Positions 4,947 to 29,035 of a stretch of DNA of 35,279 bases are shown here, piece by piece; the stretch's first letter is position 1; each line of letters opens with the position of its first letter. Both the position numbers and the translations under genes were made by a program. Source of the DNA: a virus; IMG/VR virus record IMGVR_UViG_3300042924_004102, positions 1-35,279 of that record, one strand, 5' to 3'. The notes below the pieces were generated by a model. It saw only the letters and a list, made by a program, of their open reading frames with translations. It had not been told where the DNA came from and searched no databases.

Positions 4947-5161
4947 AGCGCATTGGACTCTCTAGGGAGCAGGTGGCTGCACTTACTGGTGCAAAGCTGG
5001 AACAGCCAGCGAAGCCACAGAAATCTTTGAAGCACATCGTCAAACCCGATGACACAGCGGCTCTGGTGCGTAAACTCCACCAGCATGGGATGACCACTCG
5101 CGAGATCGTGAGGGAGCTGCGCCTGACGACTGAGACGGTGAATCGATTGCTGTCTCAGTGA
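4934..5161 (+). CDS. HTH protein (75 aa), GTG start
   Basis: I chose the GTG at 4934 because a perfect AAGGAG (4921-4926) lies 7 nt upstream; the in-frame ATG at 4874 has no such site and overlaps the Ig gene more. The C-terminal part (LVRKLHQHGMTTREIVRELR followed by LTTETVNRLLS, about 42-74) is a resolvase/Hin-like HTH, usually DNA-binding. The N-terminal half is Lys/Pro/Ala-rich and unassigned. Confidence 0.65.
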   Translation: MDPLKRIGLSREQVAALTGAKLEQPAKPQKSLKHIVKPDDTAALVRKLHQHGMTTREIVRELRLTTETVNRLLSQ

Positions 5162-5175
5162 TGAAACACTTTTAG

Positions 5176-5280
5176 CCCACTGAGTGGTGGGTGACCGTTC
5201 GGTTAGTTCCTTCCCCCTCCTAGGTGGCTTCACATAATTAATGGCTGCGAGAGTGTGAAACCAAGGGCCTGGCCGAACGG
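5176..5280 (+). promoter_or_regulatory. Structured leader between 4934-5161 and 5281 genes
   Basis: This 119-nt gap holds a local hairpin, CCCAC/GTGGG (about 5176-5191), and a long-range perfect 8-bp stem, CCGTTCGG (5195-5202) with CCGAACGG (5273-5280), whose right arm touches the ATG at 5281. Nested inside are TTCACA (5229-5234) and TGTGAA (5254-5259). A C/T-rich tract (5207-5220) could pair with a purine-rich ribosome site. It looks like a folded 5' leader that could occlude the start codon, but no known riboswitch class is recognised. Confidence 0.4.
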
Positions 5281-5526
5281 ATGTTTTGCAACGAACACAA
5301 CTGGAACGAAGAGGGACTATGCCTTCAGTGCGGAATAAACTATCACGTCGACCTGTATCACCAGCTAAAGCGCGCAAGACTCGAACTGGCAAGAGTGCTG
5401 GAGGAAAACGAGTCCCTAAGGCAAAGGCTGGCGGAGTCGGAGATACATATCCGGAGGATCAGAGCGCGTCTGAAGGAGCTGTCATGCGGATGGACGGCTA
5501 CGACGACTGCATCGTGGGATACGTAG
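5281..5526 (+). CDS. Small Cys-motif and coiled-coil protein (81 aa)
   Basis: The N-terminus carries CNEH and CLQC pairs (residues 3-6 and 14-17), a likely zinc-binding knuckle. It is followed by a Leu-rich coiled coil (LYHQLKRARLELARVLEENE, then SLRQRLAESEIHIRRIRARL, about 25-67). The last 12 residues overlap the next gene and look accidental. Not recognised as a named family. The start is immediately after the right arm of the leader stem. Confidence 0.6.
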   Translation: MFCNEHNWNEEGLCLQCGINYHVDLYHQLKRARLELARVLEENESLRQRLAESEIHIRRIRARLKELSCGWTATTTASWDT

Positions 5527-8421: not shown

Positions 8422-8604
8422 AGCCAGACCCTCCCATCCCAGCCATCCCCTTCAACACTGAGTCACAACCGCCATACACCCCTACCATTCCTACTATTCT
8501 ACTATTCTGTGTAACAGGACTAGTGCTTGACAGGGGTACCAAGAATCCCCTTATGTATCCCCCAGCTGCTCCTGCTGAATAAGTGAGTGGCCTGTGGTTA
8601 GCAA

Positions 8605-8626
8605 TGAGTCTGCCCTAGCAGACTCA
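8605..8626. repeat. Perfect 9-bp inverted repeat (hairpin)
   Basis: TGAGTCTGC, loop CCTA, GCAGACTCA. No T-tract follows (GGAGGTGCC), so it is not a standard terminator. Confidence 0.6.
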
Positions 8627-8737
8627 GGAGGTGCCCCCTAGCCCAATAAGCTGTGTCGTGAGCGGTGATAGGTGAATCCCCTAACCGTCCACCCGAATCT
8701 GGGAATGGTGGTGGTGGAAGGAAGCCCTAGCACACTG

Positions 8738-8804
8738 TGGAATTCCCAGAGAGTTGATGGGGTGGGTCAACCTATGGAAATCCAAGAGAGTTGAGAAGGG
8801 GGGT
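8738..8804 (+). repeat. Imperfect direct repeat, two 30-bp copies
   Basis: Copies at 8738-8767 and 8775-8804 share TGGAA-x-TCC-x-AGAGAGTTGA followed by a G-rich end, at 37-bp spacing. Confidence 0.5.
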
Positions 8805-8866
8805 ACCCTATATCCCATACGATCACCCCCTCGAACCCCGCTCTACCCCCCCCGTACATACGCACG

Positions 8867-9053
8867 CACGCGGACCAAAACGCGCGTACACGCGGACTAG
8901 ATCGCGCACGCGGACTGTCTAGGGGGGAACGCCTGTGTAACCCTCCGTCACCTAGCGAAGACCGAGCAAAAACGCGCCAAGCGAGGGTAAGGTGTCGGCG
9001 GTAACGTCGGCGGTTCTTTCAAATCGAAGCAACACTGGCGAAAAACGCGGACC
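8867..9053 (+). repeat. Iteron-like boxes CACGCGGAC(C/T)
   Basis: CACGCGGACC at 8867-8876, CACGCGGACT at 8889-8898 and at 8907-8916, plus ACGCGGACC at 9045-9053. The first three are 22 and 18 bp apart, about two helical turns, in a non-coding region. The layout is typical of protein-binding iterons at a replication origin or terminase site. Confidence 0.5.
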
Positions 9054-9180
9054 CGAATGTGTCTCGTTTCGAAGCTTTGAGTGGGCCAGCCCGAGTGGGT
9101 TGGTACTGCGGCGGACGAGTGTCCGGAGCGGCGAGGACTGGGCGGTAAGGCGGTACATGGCCAGTGTGGAGGCACAACAA

Positions 9181-9330
9181 GGCTAGACTTGTTGGCGCAG
9201 TCAACGGGCTGCGCACTAGACAAGCGGTACATATGGTCTCGTTTGAGACCATCCCTTTCCCTTGTTGCTTCGTTTGAGGCGGCAAGGGCTACCCATCACG
9301 CAAGCGGCGTCCTCGTCGCGATGGGTGTAA
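9181..9330 (+). ncRNA. Candidate structured RNA
   Basis: Successive stems on one strand: CTTGT/ACAAG (9188-9192, 9220-9224) enclosing GCGCAG/CTGCGC (9195-9200, 9209-9214); ATGGTCTC/GAGACCAT (9233-9240, 9245-9252, loop GTTT); a 10-bp stem with two G-U pairs (9259-9268, 9279-9288); and ACCCATC/GATGGGT (9291-9297, 9320-9326) with an inner GCGGCG/CGTCGC. It could be the 5' leader of the gene at 9378 or a separate RNA. No known class recognised. Confidence 0.4.
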
Positions 9331-9377
9331 ACGCGCAAAAACGCGCGGCCAACGCTTGCACCACACACACAAGAACT

Positions 9378-9776
9378 ATGTCACTCGCTATCGCTAACTC
9401 CAACTCCATCCCTTCCTGCAAAGACATCCTATCTAAGAAGGGCAGGGTGGTGGGCCAGAAGTTCACCTTCGGAACCCTTACTGCCTCAGAGATCAGGCAG
9501 GCTGGTCGCGGGTTGGGCCTGAAAGGGTCCGCCCTAAACGAATACGTAAATGATGCCCTCCACAACGAGGCGGCGCAGCGCAAGGCTGCGGGAGCGGTAT
9601 TCCTGTCGGTCGCGGAATCGAAGGGGATGCTCCCTGACTCTGCCGACCTTCGGTCTGGTTCTGGGGTGCTCCGTCTCGTGATGCCGAAGGCCACCAAGGT
9701 TGAGACTGCCAAGGATCGCGAAATCGCTCGATTGCAGGCCGAGCTCGCCGAGATGCGCAAGGCGATCAACGCCTAA
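9378..9776 (+). CDS. Hypothetical protein with C-terminal coiled coil (132 aa)
   Basis: Not recognised. The N-terminal half is Ser-rich then beta-like (VVGQKFTFGTLTASEIRQAG); the C-terminus is a coiled coil (DREIARLQAELAEMRKAI). I chose the ATG at 9378 because it follows an A/C-rich SD-less leader (CCACACACACAAGAACT) as seen at other genes here; the same frame is open upstream to 9081 but over hairpin-rich sequence. A terminator-like hairpin and the hammerhead ribozyme follow the stop. Confidence 0.65.
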   Translation: MSLAIANSNSIPSCKDILSKKGRVVGQKFTFGTLTASEIRQAGRGLGLKGSALNEYVNDALHNEAAQRKAAGAVFLSVAESKGMLPDSADLRSGSGVLRLVMPKATKVETAKDREIARLQAELAEMRKAINA

Positions 9777-9784
9777 GACAACAC

Positions 9785-9809
9785 AAGCCCCGAGTCTCGG
9801 GGCTTCCTT
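9785..9809 (+). terminator. Terminator-like hairpin before the ribozyme
   Basis: AAGCCCCGAG (9785-9794) and CTCGGGGCTT (9796-9805), in practice a 7-bp GC-rich stem with a GAGTCTC loop, then CCTTG. The T-run is poor. Its last two T bases are also the first two bases of hammerhead stem III, so the two folds compete slightly. It may protect the 3' end made by ribozyme cleavage. Confidence 0.55.
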
Positions 9810-9861
9810 GTCTGCCGGTATGTTCCGGCACTGATGAGCCCCAGTAGGGCGAAACAAGGAA
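9804..9861 (+). ncRNA. Type III hammerhead self-cleaving ribozyme
   Basis: All catalytic-core parts are present in order: stem III left arm TTCCTTG (9804-9810) ending in the G of GTC; cleavage-site GTC (9810-9812, cut expected after C9812); stem I TGCCGG/CCGGCA (9813-9818, 9825-9830) with loop TATGTT; core CTGATGA (9831-9837); stem II GCCC/GGGC (9838-9841, 9847-9850) with loop CAGTA; GAAA (9851-9854); stem III right arm CAAGGAA (9855-9861). Stem III pairs perfectly over 7 bp plus the U-A next to the core. Open ends on stem III make it type III. It lies between two plus-strand genes and would free a 5'-OH mRNA starting at 9813, 57 nt before the next ATG. Confidence 0.93.
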
Positions 9862-9869
9862 CACCAGTA

Positions 9870-10127
9870 ATGACAGACACAATGGTAGTCGAGGTGACGT
9901 CGGTGATGAAGCCGACAAGAGCCTCCTTTGCGGAGGCATTCGGCACCCGATTTGGTCGGGTGGCCAAGATGGTATCGGTTCCGGTCGGGACCGATATCAT
10001 CCCAGGCGCACCTTCTCGGAGCGAGTGGTGCGTGGCGTGGGAGTGGGAGACCACCGTCTGGGCGGTGGTAATCTGGCCTAAGAGGTCAGCCGCAGCGCGC
10101 CGTAAGGCGCAAGGGGGTGTCCGATGA
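9870..10127 (+). CDS. Hypothetical protein (85 aa) directly after the ribozyme
   Basis: Not recognised. The centre SEWCVAWEWETTVWAVVIWP is Trp-rich; the tail KRSAAARRKAQGG is basic. The ATG at 9870 has the SD-less leader GGAACACCAGTA and starts 8 nt past the hammerhead; a longer in-frame start at 9834 lies inside the ribozyme core. Ends by ATGA overlap with the next gene. Confidence 0.6.
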   Translation: MTDTMVVEVTSVMKPTRASFAEAFGTRFGRVAKMVSVPVGTDIIPGAPSRSEWCVAWEWETTVWAVVIWPKRSAAARRKAQGGVR

Positions 10128-16777: not shown

Positions 16778-17050
16778 ATGCTATCACCGAAGACACAGCA
16801 GGAGGTCAGCGAATGCGTGCGGGAGAAGATGACCAGCAACTTCGCAGACATGAAGATCCGCATCGAGCCGATGCGCGAGGCGCTCAGGAAGTTCGAGCAG
16901 GCGGTCAACGATCGCTCACTGGACGGCATGCATCACAGCTTGGCCGATCTCTCCAACACATCACTCAACTGCAGGGCTAGGCTCCAGTACATGCGTGGCA
17001 TCTGGGCCGTCCTCAGGAACGTTCGGGACAAGGACCCTATCGATGAATGA
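16778..17050 (+). CDS. Hypothetical helical protein (90 aa)
   Basis: Not recognised. Helical, with VREKMTSNFADMKIRIEPMR and LRKFEQAVNDRSLDGMHHSL. First gene after P6, ahead of the small TM peptide and recombinase; a regulatory or accessory role is possible but unproven. Confidence 0.6.
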   Translation: MLSPKTQQEVSECVREKMTSNFADMKIRIEPMREALRKFEQAVNDRSLDGMHHSLADLSNTSLNCRARLQYMRGIWAVLRNVRDKDPIDE

Positions 17051-17061
17051 AGGAGCTTCTC

Positions 17062-17145
17062 ATGCGGCTGTGGGACATCGCGCTGATCTTGTTAGAGATC
17101 GCAATCACGATGCTCATGCTCAGCCTCTTATCGATCTTCCAGTGA
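17062..17145 (+). CDS. 27-residue hydrophobic peptide before the recombinase
   Basis: MRLWDIALILLEIAITMLML then SLLSIFQ: almost wholly hydrophobic with two charged residues near the start. A perfect AAGGAG (17050-17055) lies 6 nt upstream. Its TGA (17143-17145) overlaps the GTG of the recombinase, so translation of the two is coupled. It may be a membrane peptide or a translational coupler; no function is known. Confidence 0.55.
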   Translation: MRLWDIALILLEIAITMLMLSLLSIFQ

Positions 17146-18317
17146 ACCCGATCGCAGGCAGATTCAAACCTGCATCCATCCCGTTCAACTCGGATCAGCT
17201 CGAGTCGCTGCTTCCGAAGTACTACGAGATGGACTTCGTCGGACTCACCTACAACACCATCTCGTTCAACAAGGAGGCGCTCAACCAGTTCCTCAAGTGG
17301 ATGCGGAAGGGTGGCTACGAGTCGGTCACAGTCGAGATGCTGCATGAGTACATCAAGTTCATGCAGGACCGGCACACCACGATGATGGCAACCAACAGGT
17401 GGGGTCGCGTGAAACGGTTCTTCCTGTGGATGGAGCGGCTTGGCTACATCGAGCGCAGCCCACATCACGTGGTCAGGAACAGGGTGACTGAGAACATCTC
17501 AAGTCACGTGCGACCGATGACTCTTGAGGAATACCTGAAGCTCAAGCAGGTCTCCGAAGGTCACTGGCTCAACTGGATCTACACGCTGGCTTGGAACAGC
17601 GGGATGGCCCTTGTCGACTGCTGCGCGCTGCGCTGGGGAGACATCAATATGGACCAGTGCTACATCAGCGTTCGCCGTAAGAAGAGCAAGGCCGCTGCGG
17701 TCATTCCATTCTCGCCATCAGACGAGCTTGGGAAGGCGATCGAGGCGATGGCTCAGGTGAAGCACGATCCGGATGACTTCGTGTGCCCAGAGGCTGGCGG
17801 CAGGCTGAGGGATGACACCAGAACCGGCCTGATCAGAAGGCTGTCTCTGAACATGTTCCGAAAGGCGGGCCTGTCCAAGGGCGTGTCGATCCACTCGATG
17901 CGCCGCTCATTCATCACGATGTTGGCCAACTCCAACATGAACACAGTGATGGCGTCGAAGATCAGCGGACACACCAGCCCGAAGATACTGGCTAGGTACG
18001 TGTTCCCAGACCCGAACGTCCTGAGGAAGGGCGTTGCTGAGGCCAAGGAGAAGTTCGGAATGGACAACTTCGCATACGTGGAGCCGTCCAATGTCCGAGT
18101 GAAGGGAAGATCCATAGCTTGGAAGCCCAACAGCCACTACATTGTGAAGAGCGGCAAGGGGCTGAAGCTTCCTGATGGAACACCCATCACATTTGTTTTC
18201 ACCTCCGCAGTAGCGGAAGGTAGAAAGGCGGTCGTCACACCCTGTGACATCGAGATGAACCCTGTGGGAAACCTGCAGATCATCGCCGACATCACTGATG
18301 TGCGACCGTTCGTATAA
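17142..18317 (+). CDS. Tyrosine recombinase (integrase-type), Arg I replaced
   Basis: 391 residues from a GTG that overlaps the TM-peptide stop. The N-terminal core-binding SAM-like domain (about 20-110) is followed by the catalytic domain: HSMRRSF with His251 and Arg254, GHTSPKILARY with His277 and Tyr286, and a beta-hairpin Lys (about 181-182). At the first catalytic Arg position the sequence reads NSGMALVDCCALRW, so Arg is Ala156. A further C-terminal domain of about 80 residues follows. Role: site-specific recombination, integration or dimer resolution; the Arg I change makes classical chemistry uncertain. No attachment site was found. Confidence 0.75.
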   Translation: MNPIAGRFKPASIPFNSDQLESLLPKYYEMDFVGLTYNTISFNKEALNQFLKWMRKGGYESVTVEMLHEYIKFMQDRHTTMMATNRWGRVKRFFLWMERLGYIERSPHHVVRNRVTENISSHVRPMTLEEYLKLKQVSEGHWLNWIYTLAWNSGMALVDCCALRWGDINMDQCYISVRRKKSKAAAVIPFSPSDELGKAIEAMAQVKHDPDDFVCPEAGGRLRDDTRTGLIRRLSLNMFRKAGLSKGVSIHSMRRSFITMLANSNMNTVMASKISGHTSPKILARYVFPDPNVLRKGVAEAKEKFGMDNFAYVEPSNVRVKGRSIAWKPNSHYIVKSGKGLKLPDGTPITFVFTSAVAEGRKAVVTPCDIEMNPVGNLQIIADITDVRPFV

Positions 18318-18899: not shown

Positions 18900-19299
18900 A
18901 CCTCTTTCATTGAAGGACTTCATTGGAGAAACGCTCGCAGCATTCCCTCCGAATCTGATCCGAGTTCTTGCGAGAACCGGAAGGGGAAACGCGACGAGGA
19001 ACCTGACCCACGACGAAGTGGCCAAGCGTTCCGGACTCAATAGGTCCAAGGTTCGACAGCTCTCGGCGCTGTCGTCGTGGGATAGGGTGGCGATCGCAGA
19101 TGCGGACGCCTTCCTCAGGGGATGCAACGTGACGCTTAGATCCCTATGGAAGCAGCGGGCATTCCTAAGGCGTAGCCTCGACCCAAGGGAGACATCGACC
19201 CCACTCGCCTACGCTGTGCGAGGGAAGCGCGTCCCAAGGCCGCCATCTGTGGAGACCTTAGTGAAGGCAGCGCTGAGCCGCTCCGTCCGGCGCGCGTAA
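18877..19299 (+). CDS. HTH protein overlapping the giant gene antisense
   Basis: 140 residues from GTG 18877, though the start is uncertain. NLTHDEVAKRSGLNRSKVRQ (about 42-61) is a Cro/CI-like HTH and is followed by VAIADADAFLRGCNVTL, so it may be a transcription regulator. It is the last plus-strand gene. Its final 164 bp run antisense to the 3' end of the giant minus-strand gene. If both are expressed, the convergent overlap is unusual; the C-terminal Arg/Pro-rich tail could instead be spurious. Confidence 0.5.
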   Translation: MTVGNRPTPLSLKDFIGETLAAFPPNLIRVLARTGRGNATRNLTHDEVAKRSGLNRSKVRQLSALSSWDRVAIADADAFLRGCNVTLRSLWKQRAFLRRSLDPRETSTPLAYAVRGKRVPRPPSVETLVKAALSRSVRRA

Positions 19300-22200
19300 G
19301 CTTCAGCTTCTTGGGGCGCAGCTGCTTGATCTTGGTCTTGATCATGCGGAGCGCCTTCGGGCCTCGAGTCAAAGCCCTGATGCGTCGCATAGCGGAAGGC
19401 ATTCCACCAGATCGCTCGGACTTGGGTTTGATTCCATCGACCAGCTTCTGGATCGCAGCGTCTCCACGATCGAACACCGCACGCTGCTCTGGGCTCATGC
19501 GTGAGCGCAGTCCAATCTTCTCGTCGGCAGACAGCATGCGACCGAACGCCTTCTGCTCTGGGAACTGAGACTTGAGAGAAGACTTCACCGCAGACCAAGG
19601 ATCGGACACTCCAGTAGCAGCCTTCACTTCGGCAGCCCTGTTCAGCAGCTGCTGAGCACCAGCAGTATCTCCAGCCGCATTGGCTGCGACCGCGCGTCGG
19701 ATCAGCGAGCTGAACTCGGTCGGCTCCATTCCGCCTCCACCACCGCCACGAGTCTTCAGCTCAAGGCTTCCGGCATTTCTTGAGGCCACGCGAACCGCAT
19801 CAGCAACCGCATCTCGAGACCCAACAGACGGGATCCGGTTCATTACCGGATTGAGGACTGGGAGCGTGCCGCGTACCGCTGAGAGGACAGCGCCAGTGTA
19901 ATCGCCAGTGGAGTTGGCGTACTTGAGCGCACCTGCAAGCGTCGAAATCGCACCAAGCTGCGGGCTGAGCTTCGTGAGATCGGTGAGGTCGGCTCGATTC
20001 TTCTGAGCGCCAACGAATCCGGCAGCGATCTCGCCCCAGTAGGGAACCATTCCGGCAATCGAAACGCCGCCAAGCTTGGCCAGATTCTTTACGGACGGAT
20101 CAGCTATGATGTCCCTAATGGTCGTCTGCGAGTATGGCCTTCCAGTGATGACGCCATAGGCAAGGCTCTTGGCCTCGTTCGCAGGAATCCCTGCAAGCAT
20201 TAGAAGGAGTATCAGCACCGCGAACGATGCGAGCTGAATCGCTGCCGACATGTACTTGTTCTTCCGCTCAGTGCTGACAGAAGAAAGCCCCTCGAGGGTT
20301 CCAAGCCAGTTCGACATCCAGCCTGGGAATCCGATCAGGAACCGAATGGCGCGCCCGAATCCACCCCTAGTCTTGATGACATCTGCACGAGCAGAATCGA
20401 CAGGAAGGTTGGATGCTGCCAACGCACGCATCAACACATCGGACTCAGCGTTCTGATCAGCGATCAGAGGAACAGAGTAGATGTCAGTTCCGGCCTTTCT
20501 GGCAGCTTCGACCCGCTTGTGATAGTCGGTCAGCAGGAACTCAAGGCTGCCTGCGGGCACCAGAATATCCTTCAGGATGATCAGCTGCTCAGGCGTCCAG
20601 CCAGCATTCGCGAAGGCCTCCTTGGAGCTGATGACGTTGTCGGGGTTGGCCCAGTTGTCCCAGCCAGGATTACCTGACTTGGAACGAATCTGCATCATGC
20701 GCTCACCGGCCATGAACATCACAGCCAGATGCTTCAGGAGCGATCTCGAGATCTCATCGTTGGCGAGCTCGTCAGCCTTGGGCTGCATGCTCATCATAAA
20801 CTCCCTGAGCGACGCGACAGCCCGATTGGAGAACATCCTGTCGATCAGACGAGTCGCCCTAGAGTCAACCTCTCCAGGCTGACGAACCACATTCCCATAC
20901 GTGCCCATCTCAGAGATGAGCTTTGCGCTTTCCAGCGGGCTCGCAGCCTCAGGTGACCAGCCGCCCATCTTGGCCATCTGAGCGACACGAGCGTACTCGT
21001 CCGAGACCCTGATGAACCTCTCGGCAAACGCTCCAAAGGCCCTTCGGTTTCTCCGGATGACATCGGACAGGGTCTTGTTATTGACCACAGCCCTCTCGAT
21101 GAGGCGAAGGATCGGCTTTGTTCCAGCGGACAGGAGCGCGCTGGGAGCCGAAGAGATTCCTTTGCCTCGAGTCATTGCCCTAGCGACAACATCGCCGCCA
21201 GCCACACCGAACAGGTAGTTCGTGATCGGAACCATCGGCGTCGTGAGCAGCAGGATCTTCTGCGCCAGTCCGACTTGGCCGAGCAGACCGCTGTCGTCGT
21301 AGACGTTGATGCCCTGAACACGCTGGGTGAACGTGTCTCGAAGCGTCTGAGTCAGGCTCAGCAACGTCTCGGCCTGCGAGCGATCGATGTAGATCTTTCC
21401 GCTCTTGATGTCTTTCTTCAGCGATTCCGGATCATTCTTCATCCGCTCGCCGATGTTGATGATGTACTGCTTCAGCGCTGACTCGACATCCATCATCTGA
21501 CGAGCGATCTGAATCAGGGAAGGAATCTGGGCGGCAACCAGAAGCCCGTTCATCTCAGCGTCTGTGGACAACGTGTACGAATAGAACACGCCAGGAGCCA
21601 CCATCTTACCGCGAGGCTTGGTGAACTGGTTCAGTCCATCCACGACACTGACGATTGCGGTTTGAGATTTGTCGTTTCCGCCACTGATTGAACCATTCGA
21701 GCTCTCTTCGATGTAGTCGCGAGCTTCCTTCTGGCTGACGAGCTTCTCTTTGTCGATCGCGATCGAGAACTTGCGGACCTCATCGAGCAGGCTGCGCTTG
21801 ATTTCCAACTCGATGTCTGCGGTTGGTCCAGCTGTCGGCACCATTCCAGCGATCTGACTGACGAGCTCGTCGGTAGTCGTTGGTGCCGATGCAGGATCCT
21901 TGCGCCAGCGGATCGCCAGCTGCTCGTAGATCTTCGCGTAGTCGCTGGTGTTCTGGAAGTCGCTGTTGGTCTCAGCAACGTATCGCCTCAGGATCTTTAT
22001 GAACGCAGTGGGATCATCGAAGATTGCTTCGATCGCCTTGAGCTGCGCGTTCTCATCCTTGTTGTTGTTGATCGCGTCGATGATCTTCTGAACGTAGAAG
22101 ATCGGTGATCCGGCATAGTTCTCCCTTAGCAGTCTACGAGGAGTGGTTGCAGCGCCTGCGGCAAACGCCCTCCTGAATCGATTGCCTTCCCTGATGAGCG

Positions 22201-25200
22201 TTGGGAAGTACTTGACGACTCCGCCTGCAGAATCACCGCTAGTGACTGCGTACACCTGATCCGAGAAGCGTGCCATCAATTCGATGGCAGCGAGATCCTC
22301 CTTGGTGACGATGTGGCCAAATGGTGTGGCCTCGCCAACCTTGATCATCGGATCCCTGTCGTTCTGGCGGGAGTTGAGGAGCTCGTTTGCAACCTCTTCA
22401 CGCCAGACCATTGGATCCATCCCAGGATGAGATTGGATGGCCCGATACTGAGCAACCTTCAGAGCCTGAGTTCCGAAGAACTTGTTGGCTTTGACAGCGG
22501 ACAGCTTCTTCTCGAGTGAGTCTTGGATGGAGTTGAGCAGAGAAAGCCTCTTGCCCATCGGTCCAGGAATCAATCGAGCCAGCGTCATCCGATTCACCAG
22601 CGCCTTGATTCCAGGAATCCTTCTGCCCAGGGAGAAAGGATTCAGAAACCCAGAGGTCAGCGCAGGAGATGCGGTCTGAGGGCCGTAAATCCTAAGCCTC
22701 TCAGAGAGTCCGGTAAGCGACTCCAGTTCGACAGGATCAGCGTCGGCTGGGTTCGAGCGTAGCTGCTGAAGGCGAGCCTCCACAGCGGCCACAAGCTTGT
22801 AGAAGTCGATGCCAGCCTGAGTGTCCAGCGTGACATCAAGCTGAGGGTTGAAGAAGTACTCCTGACCATCAACAACCCAGCGCTCACCACGTCCACGAGG
22901 ATCAGTGGTTCCAAGGATCTCTGGGTTGGAGTAGCCAAGGTTCTTGGTGGCGGTCGCGTACGAATCCTTGAACTCTGGAGATGCAACGACGCTCTCTAGC
23001 AGAGCGATCTGCTCAAGCGTGGCTCCAAACTCGTTGTCGATTCTCTGGATCTCTCGGTTCAGCGCCTTGAGCCGCTCAAGCGCATCTTCCTTTGCGGACC
23101 GATCCCTGTAGTACCGCTTCGCGAAATCCTCAATGGACACCTTCTTGGACTTCGCAGCAGCAGAGCTTGAAGAAAGCGCGAAGTAGTCCTCGAAGGCTTT
23201 CCGGTCTGCAGCAGCAAGATCGATGTTCGCCTTGTAGTCCTTGATCGTCCTTAGCGAAGAGGCCAGACCTCGATACGACTCGAGAACAGAACGCTTACCA
23301 GAAGCCGGAGGCGTCAGAAGCGTGGTGATCGTCTCAGGAAGAACCTTTCCGCTGAGGATGTTGTTGTCGACGACGTACTTGATGATCGCGTCGTTGTTGC
23401 CAGCTGCCTTCGAGGCTGCGATGACCGAGTCCGGAACAGCTTCTGCGATGATGTCTATGGCCTTAGCAACGTCAGCGTTCTGTTTCTTGATGTAGAAGGC
23501 TGCATTGGTTGCGTTGACCTTGGCCCGCTCAAGAGCTGCATCAACTCCAGCGAATGTGCGCAGGTCGTTGCGGATGTAATTGTAGTAGTCCTTCAGGAGG
23601 GCTCTCTGAGAGTTTTCAGCGACATAGGCTGCAGACTTTGCAGCGATCGCCTCCGCAAGATCAGAGATCATCTTCGGAGATGTCATCTGCACCCGAAGGA
23701 CCTCGAGCTTGGCTTTTTTCTTAGCGAGAACGTCTAGGATATTCTTGCCCTGATTCCATACCGCATAGCTGAAGCTGCCCTTGTTACGGTCATTCGGCCT
23801 GATCGACGACAGCGGAACTGAGGACTGAGAGACTTCGTTCAGGGACTTCAGCCAGCGCATTCCACGCTCAGCAGATTCAGAGAGTCCAGCCAGCTGTGTT
23901 CCAAGCCCTGCTGGAAGGAGTCCGCGCTGCACCGATGCAGACTGCTCGATTGGAACTGTTTGGTAGAAATCCAACCCAGGCCTGCGAATCTCTGATTCGA
24001 CCTGAGCTCGCGTCTTGAAAGGAGTCTTCGAGTACCTGATGTCTGCTGACTGAAGATTGAACCGCTGGCTCAGAGGGATGACGTTTCCAGACGCATCGTA
24101 TGTGACAGGATCTGCAGATTTTATCTGAGATGGAGAGAAGACGACGAACGCTCTTCCAGATGCAGATCCGGCTCCTGCAAAGTTATCTAGGATGACAGTG
24201 TCGTACTTGTAGTCAGACACAGCCTGCCTCGCTTCTTCTCCACGAATTCCCTGACCGTCACCAATCAGCAGAATACGTCTATCACGAAGAGCTTCAGGTC
24301 CGTATCCAACACGTCCAGGATTTACAAACGCTCTAAGGTTGATTCCGCGATCAGATCCCATTTGCCCAGAGTTCGGCTCTGCAGAGAACCAGAACTCACC
24401 CCATACGGAAGATCTCTCGGGATCAAACGATTGGAACTGGCTTCCAGTCGCATGATAACCAGTCAATGTGTAACCAGCGACCCTAGCGGCCTCATCTACA
24501 AGACGCTGAGCAAGCTCAAGATCTCCAGACGAAACCGCATCAAGATACCTGCGATCAATGTCGCTGATGTAGGCCAACGTATCAGCGTTTGAAGACAGCG
24601 TCTCGACCACCTCGTTCCCATTGACTGTGTATGTCGTCGATGGGCGGGACACACGCGCATGAACCTTGGCCACCGCTTTGGCAGCGATGTACTCAGCGGC
24701 GAGTCGAGTCAGCCGAACACCCTTGCTGTTGGCCCACGCAAGCACGCGTCCGGTGATGCGCTGGAACCAGTTGCGTCCGCTCCAAGCCTTGGCAAGAAGC
24801 TCGACCTTGCGGGCGTCCTCTTCGCGAGAGACTGCGGCAGGATCGTACTCAAGTCGGGCAACCTCAGCAGCGATCTCAGCAGCCTCATCTGGCGTGACCT
24901 GTGAGATCTCAGCGGCAAGCTCTCCATTCGCGTTCGCGGCTTCGGACTCCTCGTGAAGCAGGACCCTGTCGATGTCCGCTGCGGAGGAGACCTTTGCGGA
25001 GTTGATCTCGATCCTAACGATTCGACCGTCCGCTTTGCTGATGAAGATGCGGCCATCGAAGTTCGCGTTGGGGTCGTTCACCACACGAACCAATCCGCCA
25101 GCTTGAATGCCGAACCGAGAGAGAAGGCGATCCTCAACAGCAGCAACAGTCAGTCCGGTTGCTGGGCCGACATTGCGGCTGAGAAGCTCTACAACGTCTT

Positions 25201-28200
25201 CCTCGTTTCGATCGTACGCATCCGCCTCTTCAACAAGGCGTGCAGCTCCTCCTTCATTGTAGAGGTCGACAACCTTCTGGAATGCCTGATCCAGCTGAGT
25301 CCTGATGACATCGGTTGAAGATCCAGAGAACGCTTTGGAAAACGACGCCCGATCGAAGCTGCTGACAACCCTGTCGAATGCTGCCCTAAGCTGTTCAGGA
25401 TTCAGGAGAACGCCTCGATTCCTTTGCTCGAGCCCTGCAATGAATTCAGCAAGATCGCTGATGAGCTTCAGATTGAACCTGCGAATGTCTGCCGCAGAAG
25501 CAGAGACCATTGCTTCGCTTGGAGGGATCTCTTCCTTTCGCGCCTGCTGGCCTGTGGTCGTAGTCTCGGCCTGAGACTGTGTCTCTTCAGCTAGAGAGAC
25601 TGGACTGCGCTTTGCTTCGCGCACTGCGTCCACGACGATGGAACGTTGCGCCAGTCTTGGAGACCACTTGGCGGCCCACTCCTTGTCCTTAAGACCTCTG
25701 ATTAGGAACTTTGCTATCTCGTTGTCCCACCTGTCTTGATACGCAGCCGGATCAGCGGCTACGCCTGGAGCTGCCTCCATGAAACGAAGCGCGATCTGCT
25801 GCGGTCCTTTCTTCCAGAAATACGCAGCCTTGTAGATGATCTTATCGCTATCGCTTAGAGAAGCGATGAACTCGTTTCTCTCGGCTTTCTCTTCAGCTGT
25901 CTCCTCTCCGAAGATGGAGCGATCCAGAAGCCTCTCGAACTGAGAGTACTTCTCGCTGGATATAACCTCAGCAATAAGACCAAGAGCCTTGGAGCGATCG
26001 GCATCCTTCTGCTCTGTCTTCGTTGGCTCTCGCTTGGCCTCAGCAGACCGCTTCGTAAACAGTCCGGCTGCGCTCTTGATTCGAAATTGAGGGAACGTGG
26101 TTCCATCAGCGCTCACCCGATCAACGCTATAGCCGCCTTCCGCAAGCGGCCTGAAGGTAAGCACATCTCCGAGAGACACTCCCGATTTCTGAACGAGAGT
26201 CGGCGTGGCGCGAGCGGCCTTGGTTCTGCGAGTCGTGACACCAGCATCGGTCACACGAACCGTAACGCTTCCATCAGGATTCTGACCAACAACGCCATTG
26301 ATGATGCTCTTGCCCAGCTTAGCTGAAGTCTCAGGACCAAACGCCTTGTTGCTCAGCTTGATGCTGTCGCCGCTGGCCAATGGAGTCTCGTCTGCGTAGA
26401 CAAGACCAGTCTGCGCTGCGGGAGCAGGAGCTGAAACTGGGGCGGCAGCTGGAGTTGGAACAGCTGCTGGAGCTTTGGCTTTTGCAGGAGCAGGAGCAGG
26501 AGTTGGCGCTGGGATGTTCCTGTTCAGCGATGACAGGAGCTCGTCAAATGCGTCTGCCGTATCTTCCCTGCCTCCAAGCTCCTTCTGCACGCTGAGCACC
26601 TCGTCGTGGTCAGCTTTTGTAATGTAGCCTAGCTGGAGAGCCTTCTTTGCAAGACTCCTAAGACGAGCTGGAGACTCAAGGTTTGCCGCCGCGCCATCTA
26701 CTTGGTCGATGAAGTTGATGCGAGCTATGTCTTCAGGCTTCTCGACAGGAATCGGAGCTGGAGCTGGAGCTGGGGCGGCAGCTGGAGCTGGAGATTGAGG
26801 TATAGCTGCTGTTTCAAGTGCTTGTTTTAACCTTGGCTTAATAGATTCAAACAATCGAATCCTAGCTGCGGCCCTTCCATCTTCATTGTCAGGCCTGTAT
26901 TCAATGTCGTTAAACCCTTCCGCCTTAAGCGCCGAAGCGACTTCTGGAAGTTTTCCAGCAATATCACGCCCTTTAAGTCCTGTTATAAATCCAATGTTCG
27001 GATTTTCTGGAGACGGTATTACTTGGATAACTGTATCACCTACTACTAGTTGCTTTCCTCCAATGGCTTTAAGCGGGCCGCCTGGCTGAAATAATGAAGG
27101 TTGATAACCGCCTTGAAGCGCATCCGATGGTGCTGCTACTTCCGCCCTTCCTGTGACATCTGCTGGAGCTTGTCCTTGCCGTACTTCCGCCTGCCGATCC
27201 ACGCGGCCAGTGCCTTGGGCTCCTTGACCCCCTTCTTGGACAGCTGGTTGACGAGCTTCTGGAACTTGGACTGGGGCTTCATTGATCTGTTGGAGTTGGC
27301 GTTGTTCTTGTGCGCGAAGATCTCGGAGGCGCTGGGCGACCTCTGGGCTCATTCCTAGGGTCGGCCTAGGCTCTGGAGCTATCGGCCTCGTGGCGGCCCC
27401 ATAGCGGCTCGCCTGAGCGGCTTCCAGTCTTCCTAGAGGAACGCTGGCCTGCTCAGCTTGGAGCTGGGCCATAATGCGCGCTTCCTCTTCGGCCATCTGG
27501 GCTCTGGCTACAGCCTCTTCCTCCTGAAGCTGGGCCATAATGCGTGCCTCCTCCTGAGGATTGGCAACGATACGTCCAGCGGCTTCGACTCTGCGGGCTT
27601 CGGCTTCAGCCCTATTGCGTTCAGCAACCAGTCGCCGCACCGCAGCGCGACGCTCAACCTCTTGCTGGCTCAGGATGACCCCAGTGCCAAAGCCTTCAGG
27701 CGGGTACTGTCCGATCTGCGGCTCAGCGGCAACCTCTGCTGCGGGAGCGGGAGCCTCCTGATACATTCCCTCCGCCTCCAGACGACGACGTTCAGCGTTG
27801 CTGAGACGTGTTCCGGCAGGGCCAACAGATCTTCCTTCACCAAGATAGGTCTGTGCGATTCCACCGACTGTGGAGATCGGAGTGCCAGTCTCTGCGGAGG
27901 GGGCCTGCAGCGGCGCTCCATAGACAGCGCCGACATCGCCACGATCAACAGACCTAGCTCCAAGACGACCAAAGTAATCCTGAAGCTCCTGCTCCAGACG
28001 AGCCTCTCGGAGAGCATCCGCCCTTCTTCCGACACCAGACTGGATTCCTCCGATCACGCCGCCAGTAGCAGCGCCAGCAACTCCAGCCTCAAGAATCCGA
28101 GCCGCTGCCTCTGATGCTGAAGGCAGTTCGCCACCTCCTGCTCCAGTGGCCAGTATTGCAGTAGCCTCCTGTCCAGCTTCGGTCAGGCCTTCTGTGATAG

Positions 28201-29035
28201 TTCCTTTAGCAACGCCACGCGCAACCTCTCCAGCAGCTCCACGAATGCCACGCTGCACCAACTCCCTTGCGGCATCATCAGCAGCCTCTCCGAGAATACG
28301 GCGGGCCACTGTGGATTCGATTCCCATCGACTCGAGAGCGCCGCTTAGGAGACCGCCTCCAACCGCTGCGGCACGCTGCCTGAATCCAGTATCTCCAGTG
28401 GCGTCGACAATGTCAGAGTAAATGGCACCAGCCTCTTGCGGTGCAGTTACAAGCATCGGCCCAAGGAATCCAGCTGTGCGAGCTCCAAGGCCGGTCATTC
28501 CGAGAGCTCCAGCGGTGCCGCCAGTGGCAAGCATCTGCGGAATCTGCTGAGCAAGCAGTGCTCCTAAGTATCCAGTCGCATCTCCAGCATCTTTAATTTC
28601 CCTAAAAGACTTTGGGGCCGTCATCGGGATGTCAGCCATCCCAGACAGTTCGCGACTCGTCTCAAGCAGGCTCCTTGATACTTCTCCAGGAGTTAAAGCG
28701 GCACCAAGTCCGACGACTCCGCCAGCCATTCTGGCCAGTCCGCCAGCAGTCTGACGCCCCAGTTCAGACCGCATCAGGAGCGGAACATCCTTGTCCGACT
28801 CGTAGGCCTCTAACGTCTCAAGTCTGGTCTGTGCGGCACGTCCCTCTTCCTTGAGCTGGGCCATCTGATCCTGAAGGCCAGCCCTCTTGTTGAGGTAGGT
28901 GATGATGTCAGCATCGCTGGCACCATCAGCCCTCGCTAGGGCAGCATTGAAGCCATAGGTCTTTCCAAGGTGGTCAGCGATCTCCGCATCGCTGAATCCA
29001 TCCTCCCTAGCCAGAGCCCAGTTGAATTGAGGCAT
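19136..29035 (-). CDS. Giant polyvalent / internal virion protein with ART-like domain (3,299 aa)
   Basis: Probable virion protein ejected with DNA, or another multi-domain phage protein. Order: N-terminal repeats (ALAREDGFSDAEIADHL, ALARADGASDADIITYL, about 7-50); Gly/Ala-rich hydrophobic segments (about 80-330); a Gln/Glu/Ala coiled region with 'EEARIMAQLQ' repeats (about 490-530); an AT-richer inserted domain (about 640-745); Pro/Ala linkers; a zincin-like segment RVLLHEESEA (His at 1361; no second His); an ADP-ribosyltransferase-like domain with GYHATGS (His 1528) and the SADPVTY/GNVIPLSQRFN/DIRYS ending (to about 1670); long helical segments; a TM helix (LASFAVLILLLMLAGIP, about 2935-2955); and a basic Arg-rich C-terminus. 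The domain pair resembles polyvalent proteins. No polymerase motifs were seen. Confidence 0.8.
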   Translation of the reverse strand: MPQFNWALAREDGFSDAEIADHLGKTYGFNAALARADGASDADIITYLNKRAGLQDQMAQLKEEGRAAQTRLETLEAYESDKDVPLLMRSELGRQTAGGLARMAGGVVGLGAALTPGEVSRSLLETSRELSGMADIPMTAPKSFREIKDAGDATGYLGALLAQQIPQMLATGGTAGALGMTGLGARTAGFLGPMLVTAPQEAGAIYSDIVDATGDTGFRQRAAAVGGGLLSGALESMGIESTVARRILGEAADDAARELVQRGIRGAAGEVARGVAKGTITEGLTEAGQEATAILATGAGGGELPSASEAAARILEAGVAGAATGGVIGGIQSGVGRRADALREARLEQELQDYFGRLGARSVDRGDVGAVYGAPLQAPSAETGTPISTVGGIAQTYLGEGRSVGPAGTRLSNAERRRLEAEGMYQEAPAPAAEVAAEPQIGQYPPEGFGTGVILSQQEVERRAAVRRLVAERNRAEAEARRVEAAGRIVANPQEEARIMAQLQEEEAVARAQMAEEEARIMAQLQAEQASVPLGRLEAAQASRYGAATRPIAPEPRPTLGMSPEVAQRLRDLRAQEQRQLQQINEAPVQVPEARQPAVQEGGQGAQGTGRVDRQAEVRQGQAPADVTGRAEVAAPSDALQGGYQPSLFQPGGPLKAIGGKQLVVGDTVIQVIPSPENPNIGFITGLKGRDIAGKLPEVASALKAEGFNDIEYRPDNEDGRAAARIRLFESIKPRLKQALETAAIPQSPAPAAAPAPAPAPIPVEKPEDIARINFIDQVDGAAANLESPARLRSLAKKALQLGYITKADHDEVLSVQKELGGREDTADAFDELLSSLNRNIPAPTPAPAPAKAKAPAAVPTPAAAPVSAPAPAAQTGLVYADETPLASGDSIKLSNKAFGPETSAKLGKSIINGVVGQNPDGSVTVRVTDAGVTTRRTKAARATPTLVQKSGVSLGDVLTFRPLAEGGYSVDRVSADGTTFPQFRIKSAAGLFTKRSAEAKREPTKTEQKDADRSKALGLIAEVISSEKYSQFERLLDRSIFGEETAEEKAERNEFIASLSDSDKIIYKAAYFWKKGPQQIALRFMEAAPGVAADPAAYQDRWDNEIAKFLIRGLKDKEWAAKWSPRLAQRSIVVDAVREAKRSPVSLAEETQSQAETTTTGQQARKEEIPPSEAMVSASAADIRRFNLKLISDLAEFIAGLEQRNRGVLLNPEQLRAAFDRVVSSFDRASFSKAFSGSSTDVIRTQLDQAFQKVVDLYNEGGAARLVEEADAYDRNEEDVVELLSRNVGPATGLTVAAVEDRLLSRFGIQAGGLVRVVNDPNANFDGRIFISKADGRIVRIEINSAKVSSAADIDRVLLHEESEAANANGELAAEISQVTPDEAAEIAAEVARLEYDPAAVSREEDARKVELLAKAWSGRNWFQRITGRVLAWANSKGVRLTRLAAEYIAAKAVAKVHARVSRPSTTYTVNGNEVVETLSSNADTLAYISDIDRRYLDAVSSGDLELAQRLVDEAARVAGYTLTGYHATGSQFQSFDPERSSVWGEFWFSAEPNSGQMGSDRGINLRAFVNPGRVGYGPEALRDRRILLIGDGQGIRGEEARQAVSDYKYDTVILDNFAGAGSASGRAFVVFSPSQIKSADPVTYDASGNVIPLSQRFNLQSADIRYSKTPFKTRAQVESEIRRPGLDFYQTVPIEQSASVQRGLLPAGLGTQLAGLSESAERGMRWLKSLNEVSQSSVPLSSIRPNDRNKGSFSYAVWNQGKNILDVLAKKKAKLEVLRVQMTSPKMISDLAEAIAAKSAAYVAENSQRALLKDYYNYIRNDLRTFAGVDAALERAKVNATNAAFYIKKQNADVAKAIDIIAEAVPDSVIAASKAAGNNDAIIKYVVDNNILSGKVLPETITTLLTPPASGKRSVLESYRGLASSLRTIKDYKANIDLAAADRKAFEDYFALSSSSAAAKSKKVSIEDFAKRYYRDRSAKEDALERLKALNREIQRIDNEFGATLEQIALLESVVASPEFKDSYATATKNLGYSNPEILGTTDPRGRGERWVVDGQEYFFNPQLDVTLDTQAGIDFYKLVAAVEARLQQLRSNPADADPVELESLTGLSERLRIYGPQTASPALTSGFLNPFSLGRRIPGIKALVNRMTLARLIPGPMGKRLSLLNSIQDSLEKKLSAVKANKFFGTQALKVAQYRAIQSHPGMDPMVWREEVANELLNSRQNDRDPMIKVGEATPFGHIVTKEDLAAIELMARFSDQVYAVTSGDSAGGVVKYFPTLIREGNRFRRAFAAGAATTPRRLLRENYAGSPIFYVQKIIDAINNNKDENAQLKAIEAIFDDPTAFIKILRRYVAETNSDFQNTSDYAKIYEQLAIRWRKDPASAPTTTDELVSQIAGMVPTAGPTADIELEIKRSLLDEVRKFSIAIDKEKLVSQKEARDYIEESSNGSISGGNDKSQTAIVSVVDGLNQFTKPRGKMVAPGVFYSYTLSTDAEMNGLLVAAQIPSLIQIARQMMDVESALKQYIINIGERMKNDPESLKKDIKSGKIYIDRSQAETLLSLTQTLRDTFTQRVQGINVYDDSGLLGQVGLAQKILLLTTPMVPITNYLFGVAGGDVVARAMTRGKGISSAPSALLSAGTKPILRLIERAVVNNKTLSDVIRRNRRAFGAFAERFIRVSDEYARVAQMAKMGGWSPEAASPLESAKLISEMGTYGNVVRQPGEVDSRATRLIDRMFSNRAVASLREFMMSMQPKADELANDEISRSLLKHLAVMFMAGERMMQIRSKSGNPGWDNWANPDNVISSKEAFANAGWTPEQLIILKDILVPAGSLEFLLTDYHKRVEAARKAGTDIYSVPLIADQNAESDVLMRALAASNLPVDSARADVIKTRGGFGRAIRFLIGFPGWMSNWLGTLEGLSSVSTERKNKYMSAAIQLASFAVLILLLMLAGIPANEAKSLAYGVITGRPYSQTTIRDIIADPSVKNLAKLGGVSIAGMVPYWGEIAAGFVGAQKNRADLTDLTKLSPQLGAISTLAGALKYANSTGDYTGAVLSAVRGTLPVLNPVMNRIPSVGSRDAVADAVRVASRNAGSLELKTRGGGGGGMEPTEFSSLIRRAVAANAAGDTAGAQQLLNRAAEVKAATGVSDPWSAVKSSLKSQFPEQKAFGRMLSADEKIGLRSRMSPEQRAVFDRGDAAIQKLVDGIKPKSERSGGMPSAMRRIRALTRGPKALRMIKTKIKQLRPKKLKLTRAGRSGSALPSLRSPQMAALGRASLAQRRRVGSMSPLGRGYALGMPAASIGI

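Follow-up and report, generated by a model that had tools for sequence, protein, structure and literature searches.

A type III hammerhead ribozyme with a Shine-Dalgarno sequence in stem III, a probable mRNA-processing element at a phage gene border

What does a hammerhead ribozyme do between two phage genes that are read in the same direction? Hammerheads of phages and bacteria were first found in 2010-2011, and the question is raised here by positions 9804-9861 (+ strand) of an IMG/VR virus record of 35,279 bases, the whole of which was analysed and is called the window. In our judgement this is probably a working type III hammerhead, which processes a polycistronic phage mRNA where the upstream gene gives way to the downstream operon. 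What we observed is its sequence and structure, compensated conservation, a Shine-Dalgarno sequence (SD) within stem III and the repeated occurrence of type III hammerheads ahead of start codons; from these we infer cleavage, the RNA ends that it would leave and its effects on stability and translation.

The hammerhead lies between two co-oriented genes of no known family. The upstream one (9378-9776, +) encodes 132 aa with a C-terminal coiled-coil-like segment, AKDREIARLQAELAEMRK, which is conserved in relatives, and the first downstream one (9870-10127, +) encodes 85 aa. Elsewhere the + strand carries genes for a DnaB-like helicase, an integrase and an AAA ATPase and a DUF2201 metallopeptidase/VWA gene, while large genes, virion and tail proteins among them, occupy the - strand. 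The closest phage records to the DUF2201 protein are about 31% identical; the pair of AAA ATPase and DUF2201 genes has homologues in many other phage records and shares this genome with a tyrosine-type integrase gene (16995-18317, +). Ahead of the upstream gene, about 830 bases (8543-9377) contain several hairpins but no evident gene and no Rfam match. A gene of 3299 aa (19136-29035, -) has no PHROG match, and its only Pfam match, to ART-PolyVal (residues 1523-1642), is below threshold.

All core bases of a complete type III hammerhead are present at 9804-9861 and its stems consist of Watson-Crick pairs throughout (17 of 17; 6, 4 and 7 bp). Stem III is formed by UUCCUUG (9804-9810) and CAAGGAA (9855-9861); its ends are open, while stems I and II are closed by loops, which is what defines type III. 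The cleavage triplet is GUC and, according to the RF00008 alignment, U16.1 and C17 correspond to 9811-9812, with the cut predicted after C9812. Stem I (9813-9830) pairs UGCCGG (9813-9818) with CCGGCA (9825-9830) around the loop UAUGUU (9819-9824), and stem II (9838-9850) pairs GCCC (9838-9841) with GGGC (9847-9850) around CAGUA (9842-9846). Between the stems lie CUGAUGA (9831-9837) and GAAA (9851-9854), both placed by the same alignment (the former also by a core pattern match), which together with U9811 and C9812 make up the consensus CUGANGA...GAAA...U-H. The earlier note, made from the letters alone, had described a complete type III hammerhead between two phage genes; this identification is supported, all its hammerhead coordinates and stem lengths are exact, and so are the distance of 8 nt from 9861 to ATG 9870 and the leader of 57 nt (9813-9869).

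It had further proposed a search with the Rfam hammerhead models, whose outcome was divided. In the search of the whole window RF00008 matched the hammerhead with E=5.4e-7, the only Rfam match at E of 0.5 or less, but its 45.4 bits miss the curated cut-off of 48.5 bits, an annotation threshold rather than a defining property of hammerhead ribozymes, and for this reason a default Rfam scan of the window reports nothing. The expected number of matches to the bare core pattern is 0.04 per window, and the stem-aware hammerhead finder, run on 1.95 Mb of shuffled sequence, gave no false positives. The minimum free energy (MFE) structure of the isolated 58-mer is the hammerhead itself with only the outermost U-A pair open (z -3.35). 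Other Rfam matches near the site (asX2, Phe_leader, rimP and others) scored far under their own cut-offs and were set aside as chance. A viroid-like, retrozyme or circular-RNA origin was also rejected, the window having one core match, one Rfam match and no second hammerhead, whereas such elements carry two hammerheads, or repeats, that delimit a circular RNA unit.

Scans of viral contigs returned two distinct relatives of the locus, one represented by two near-identical contigs (L004/L005) and the other by L008, so that the family has three distinct members only. The upstream hairpin described below, the ribozyme and the ATG are kept in all of them. Compared with the relatives, four pairs are compensated (three in stem I and one in stem II), none is broken and stem III is invariant; both L005 and L008 have an extra A between A9 and stem II, directly after CTGATGA, which is absent from the window. 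In L008 a different gene (5011-5415) directly follows the same hairpin and ribozyme in the place of 9870-10127, hence conservation attaches to the boundary rather than to any one gene. The relatives also bear on the choice of start codon: the window also has an ATG at 9834, within the hammerhead core, that shares the frame of 9870, yet in both L005 and L008 the corresponding frame is closed by a stop immediately ahead of the real start, which makes 9870 the likely start. No relative of the locus DNA or of either neighbouring protein was found among INPHARED phage records, and protein searches with a profile of the upstream gene and with the 85-aa protein found no members beyond the two near-identical contigs. 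Related genomes keeping the flanks but changing core bases without compensation had been named as evidence against a functional ribozyme; an IMG/VR search for the hairpin and stem III arm, with no core required, returned only contigs of this family, all with an intact ribozyme, and none with a lost core.

Pairing between the loops was another proposal of the earlier note, to be sought as covariation in related phages; a tertiary contact between loops I and II is what hammerheads need for activity at physiological Mg2+. Loops I and II could pair through UGUU/AGUA in the window and UGCU/AGCA in a relative, and complementarity of at least 4 was found in 22 of 68 hammerheads, where randomly dealt loops give 16.5 and 45 of 1000 shuffles reach 22. 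The signal for a loop I/loop II pseudoknot is thus weak, and covariation was seen only to that extent.

The function of the element is best approached through the placement of hammerheads in viral contigs generally. Our type III scan pattern contained neither SD nor ATG, which leaves the sample unbiased for adjacency to starts; scan matches, the window family and matches of another scan yielded 71 distinct hammerheads of type III whose flanks were long enough. As many as 57 of the 71 lie just before an SD and ATG with an open frame, compared with 6.4% of random positions and 0 of 71 on the other strand, which supports the earlier suggestion of a translation-ready 5' end; the location of the window hammerhead is typical of phage type III hammerheads. 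In the type I scan a stop codon was found within 30 nt upstream in 84 of 152 cases (7% at random), whereas for type III such proximity was at the random level. After grouping of related flanks, the median distances to the upstream stop and the downstream start were 51 nt and 15 nt for type III (20 clusters) and 2 nt and 26 nt for type I (44 clusters), and the difference in placement by cluster was significant (Fisher p=2e-4). Type II hammerheads, identified with Rfam and the stem-aware finder, occupy internal gene borders (medians 3 nt after the stop and 25 nt before the start) and occur in runs of up to seven that follow an opening type III. On strands carrying type III and another type, type III came first in 50 of 52 cases (20 expected); with at least 2 kb visible upstream this held for 34 of 34, though these represent few lineages, and at 1 kb for 6 of 7 clusters.

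Runs at successive gene borders were seen in L018 (9454-12341, +), L024, L021, L012, L022 and L138, each with one type III followed by up to seven type II hammerheads; these lie some 0-10 nt past a stop, with the next start some 17-32 nt further on. Between the hammerheads of the phage contig L022, a short stretch (1828-1919, +) matches the Rfam tmRNA model with 50.7 bits (cut-off 47) and may be either a reduced tmRNA or spurious.

After the predicted cut the ribozyme body stays with the downstream product in type III, with stem I at its 5' end, and with the upstream product in type I. Since type III hammerheads stand before starts and type I after stops, position follows the product that keeps the structure. 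A general rule can be proposed, to which we give about an even chance: that topology is matched to the gene end, with the first gene preceded by type III, internal borders marked by type II and the stop codon directly followed by type I, and that the product in need of protection keeps the ribozyme body as an end cap, a polycistronic transcript being diced in this way into capped single mRNAs; the window would then hold an operon-opening element with its SD in stem III. This adjacency of type III to starts, type I to stops and type II to internal borders supports the mRNA-processing reading, and we infer that these hammerheads divide polycistronic mRNAs and serve as caps for the ends so formed.

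The SD of the downstream gene, AAGGA (9856-9860, 9 nt before ATG 9870), forms five pairs with the anti-SD (-5.4 kcal/mol) and lies wholly within stem III, which in the window family is invariant whereas stems I and II vary. This raises the possibility, which we regard as doubtful although it is the strongest of the alternatives, that the ribozyme is a translation switch: the SD would be hidden in the uncut stem III, the cut would make that stem intermolecular, its 5' arm would refold into the hairpin, and translation would occur only after cleavage. An SD inside stem III recurs in five or more contexts of unlike sequence (the window family, L007, L009, L014 and the group of L012, L018, L021, L022 and L138), and folding indicates that each of the three family members has a 5' product able to refold with the arm paired upstream. 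It is found, however, in just 9 of 70 type III hammerheads, the SD lying mostly 3' of stem III. A search of prokaryote genomes for the SD-in-stem-III pattern gave 59 matches with real stems in one (L138, a contig of an Acidimicrobiaceae MAG), and for this reason the pattern alone is no evidence. The idea that upstream sequence captures the anti-SD arm was rejected as a general means of release (0.444 against 0.433 in shuffled sequence, 69 hammerheads, p=0.77), and in the window it did not exceed that with shuffled upstream sequence (p=0.25). A ribosome could also open 7 bp unaided. Release of the SD by cleavage may occur, but it is not favoured by the arm-capture test.

Preceding the ribozyme is a GC-rich hairpin, AAGCCCCGAG-U-CUCGGGGCUU (9785-9805, +), whose outer two U overlap stem III. 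The upstream 42 nt have a folding z of -3.9 in the window and of -3.8 and -2.0 in the relatives. The hairpin is genuine, yet it is a poor terminator: an intrinsic terminator consists of a GC-rich hairpin and a U-run on the transcribed strand, and here the + strand tail, CCUUGUCU, has no U-run, while the terminator scan calls the hairpin on the - strand only. The earlier description of a terminator-like hairpin stands as regards the hairpin and needs qualifying as regards termination on the + strand. It follows from the missing U-run that polymerase should pass, and the hairpin is better read as a cap at the 3' end of the upstream mRNA. The suggestion that the ribozyme replaces conventional termination found no support, because a ribozyme cuts the transcript and does not stop polymerase. 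An arrangement in which most upstream transcripts stop at the hairpin and read-through is trimmed by the ribozyme would agree with a GC-rich hairpin kept directly after the upstream stop codon in three genomes; we nevertheless consider it unlikely given the tail, the identity of the stem III arm with the hairpin's last bases and tail, and the fact that behind a strong terminator the ribozyme would not be transcribed.

Folding of a longer segment brings in another alternative. Without constraint, 9770-9890 prefers a GACAA/UUGUC pairing which breaks stem III (MFE -57.0 against -52.1 kcal/mol for the hammerhead-constrained fold), and such an extended hairpin might keep the ribozyme off until a signal or protein frees it. 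We find regulation of this kind quite improbable: in L005 and L008 the gap is smaller (2.4 and 2.0 kcal/mol, respectively), within model error, and neither an aptamer-like domain nor an additional conserved region was seen nearby. Furthermore, loop tertiary contacts stabilise hammerheads and are outside the folding energy model. That the motif is a functionless relic or due to chance, to which the score under the Rfam cut-off might point, is very improbable in view of the compensatory changes, conserved position, start-codon adjacency and RF00008 E-value near 5e-7.

Under the mRNA-processing reading, polymerase would read through hairpin 9785-9805, and the ribozyme would fold and then cut after C9812. 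The upstream mRNA would end in a 2',3'-cyclic phosphate close behind the stable hairpin, and the downstream mRNA would begin with a 5'-OH at U9813, with stem I at its extreme 5' end followed by stem II and with the SD freed from an intramolecular stem III. The expected net effect is a separate downstream mRNA, resistant to decay and ready for ribosomes. In bacteria, mRNAs with a stem-loop at an end are known to be degraded more slowly (review PMC7509114). Weighing against this reading are the alternative fold preferred by 9770-9890, the chance that the cut products stay joined by stem III pairing (predicted at -7.2 kcal/mol), a family of only three distinct members and the missed Rfam cut-off.

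With the type III hammerheads of RF00008 the window shares the complete core, three stems, open stem III and GUC triplet, and it differs in its score and in having loops of 6 nt (I) and 5 nt (II). The plus-strand hammerhead of chrysanthemum chlorotic mottle viroid (CChMVd, PMC3705267) has an extra A as in L005 and L008; it cuts replication multimers, whereas the phage hammerhead would act on phage mRNA. Splitting of transcripts by phage hammerheads was proposed in 2011, and the window ribozyme is a further candidate of this kind. The rule relating type to position was not found in the accessible text of Perreault et al. 2011 or in other accessible literature; seen in several phage groups, it predicts which mRNA end each hammerhead type protects. 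According to the accessible text of Perreault et al. 2011 (PMC3088659), the hammerhead of haloviruses HF1/HF2 (HHphage) lies 13 nt before a start codon, with the mapped mRNA 5' end at most 3 nt from the cleavage site, a precedent for the mRNA-processing reading. Like the window element it precedes the start of the first gene of an operon by a few nt, but it has the core variant of an archaeal virus, whereas the window has the full consensus core and an SD in stem III. The same text proposes that clustered prophage hammerheads may divide transcripts into mRNAs the length of an operon or a gene, and reports them as active in vitro and, for the one of Agrobacterium tumefaciens, also in E. coli. 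Those clusters differ from the window, where a single hammerhead is accompanied on its upstream side by an ordinary hairpin; the window offers a compact test case of one ribozyme, one hairpin and one SD inside stem III.
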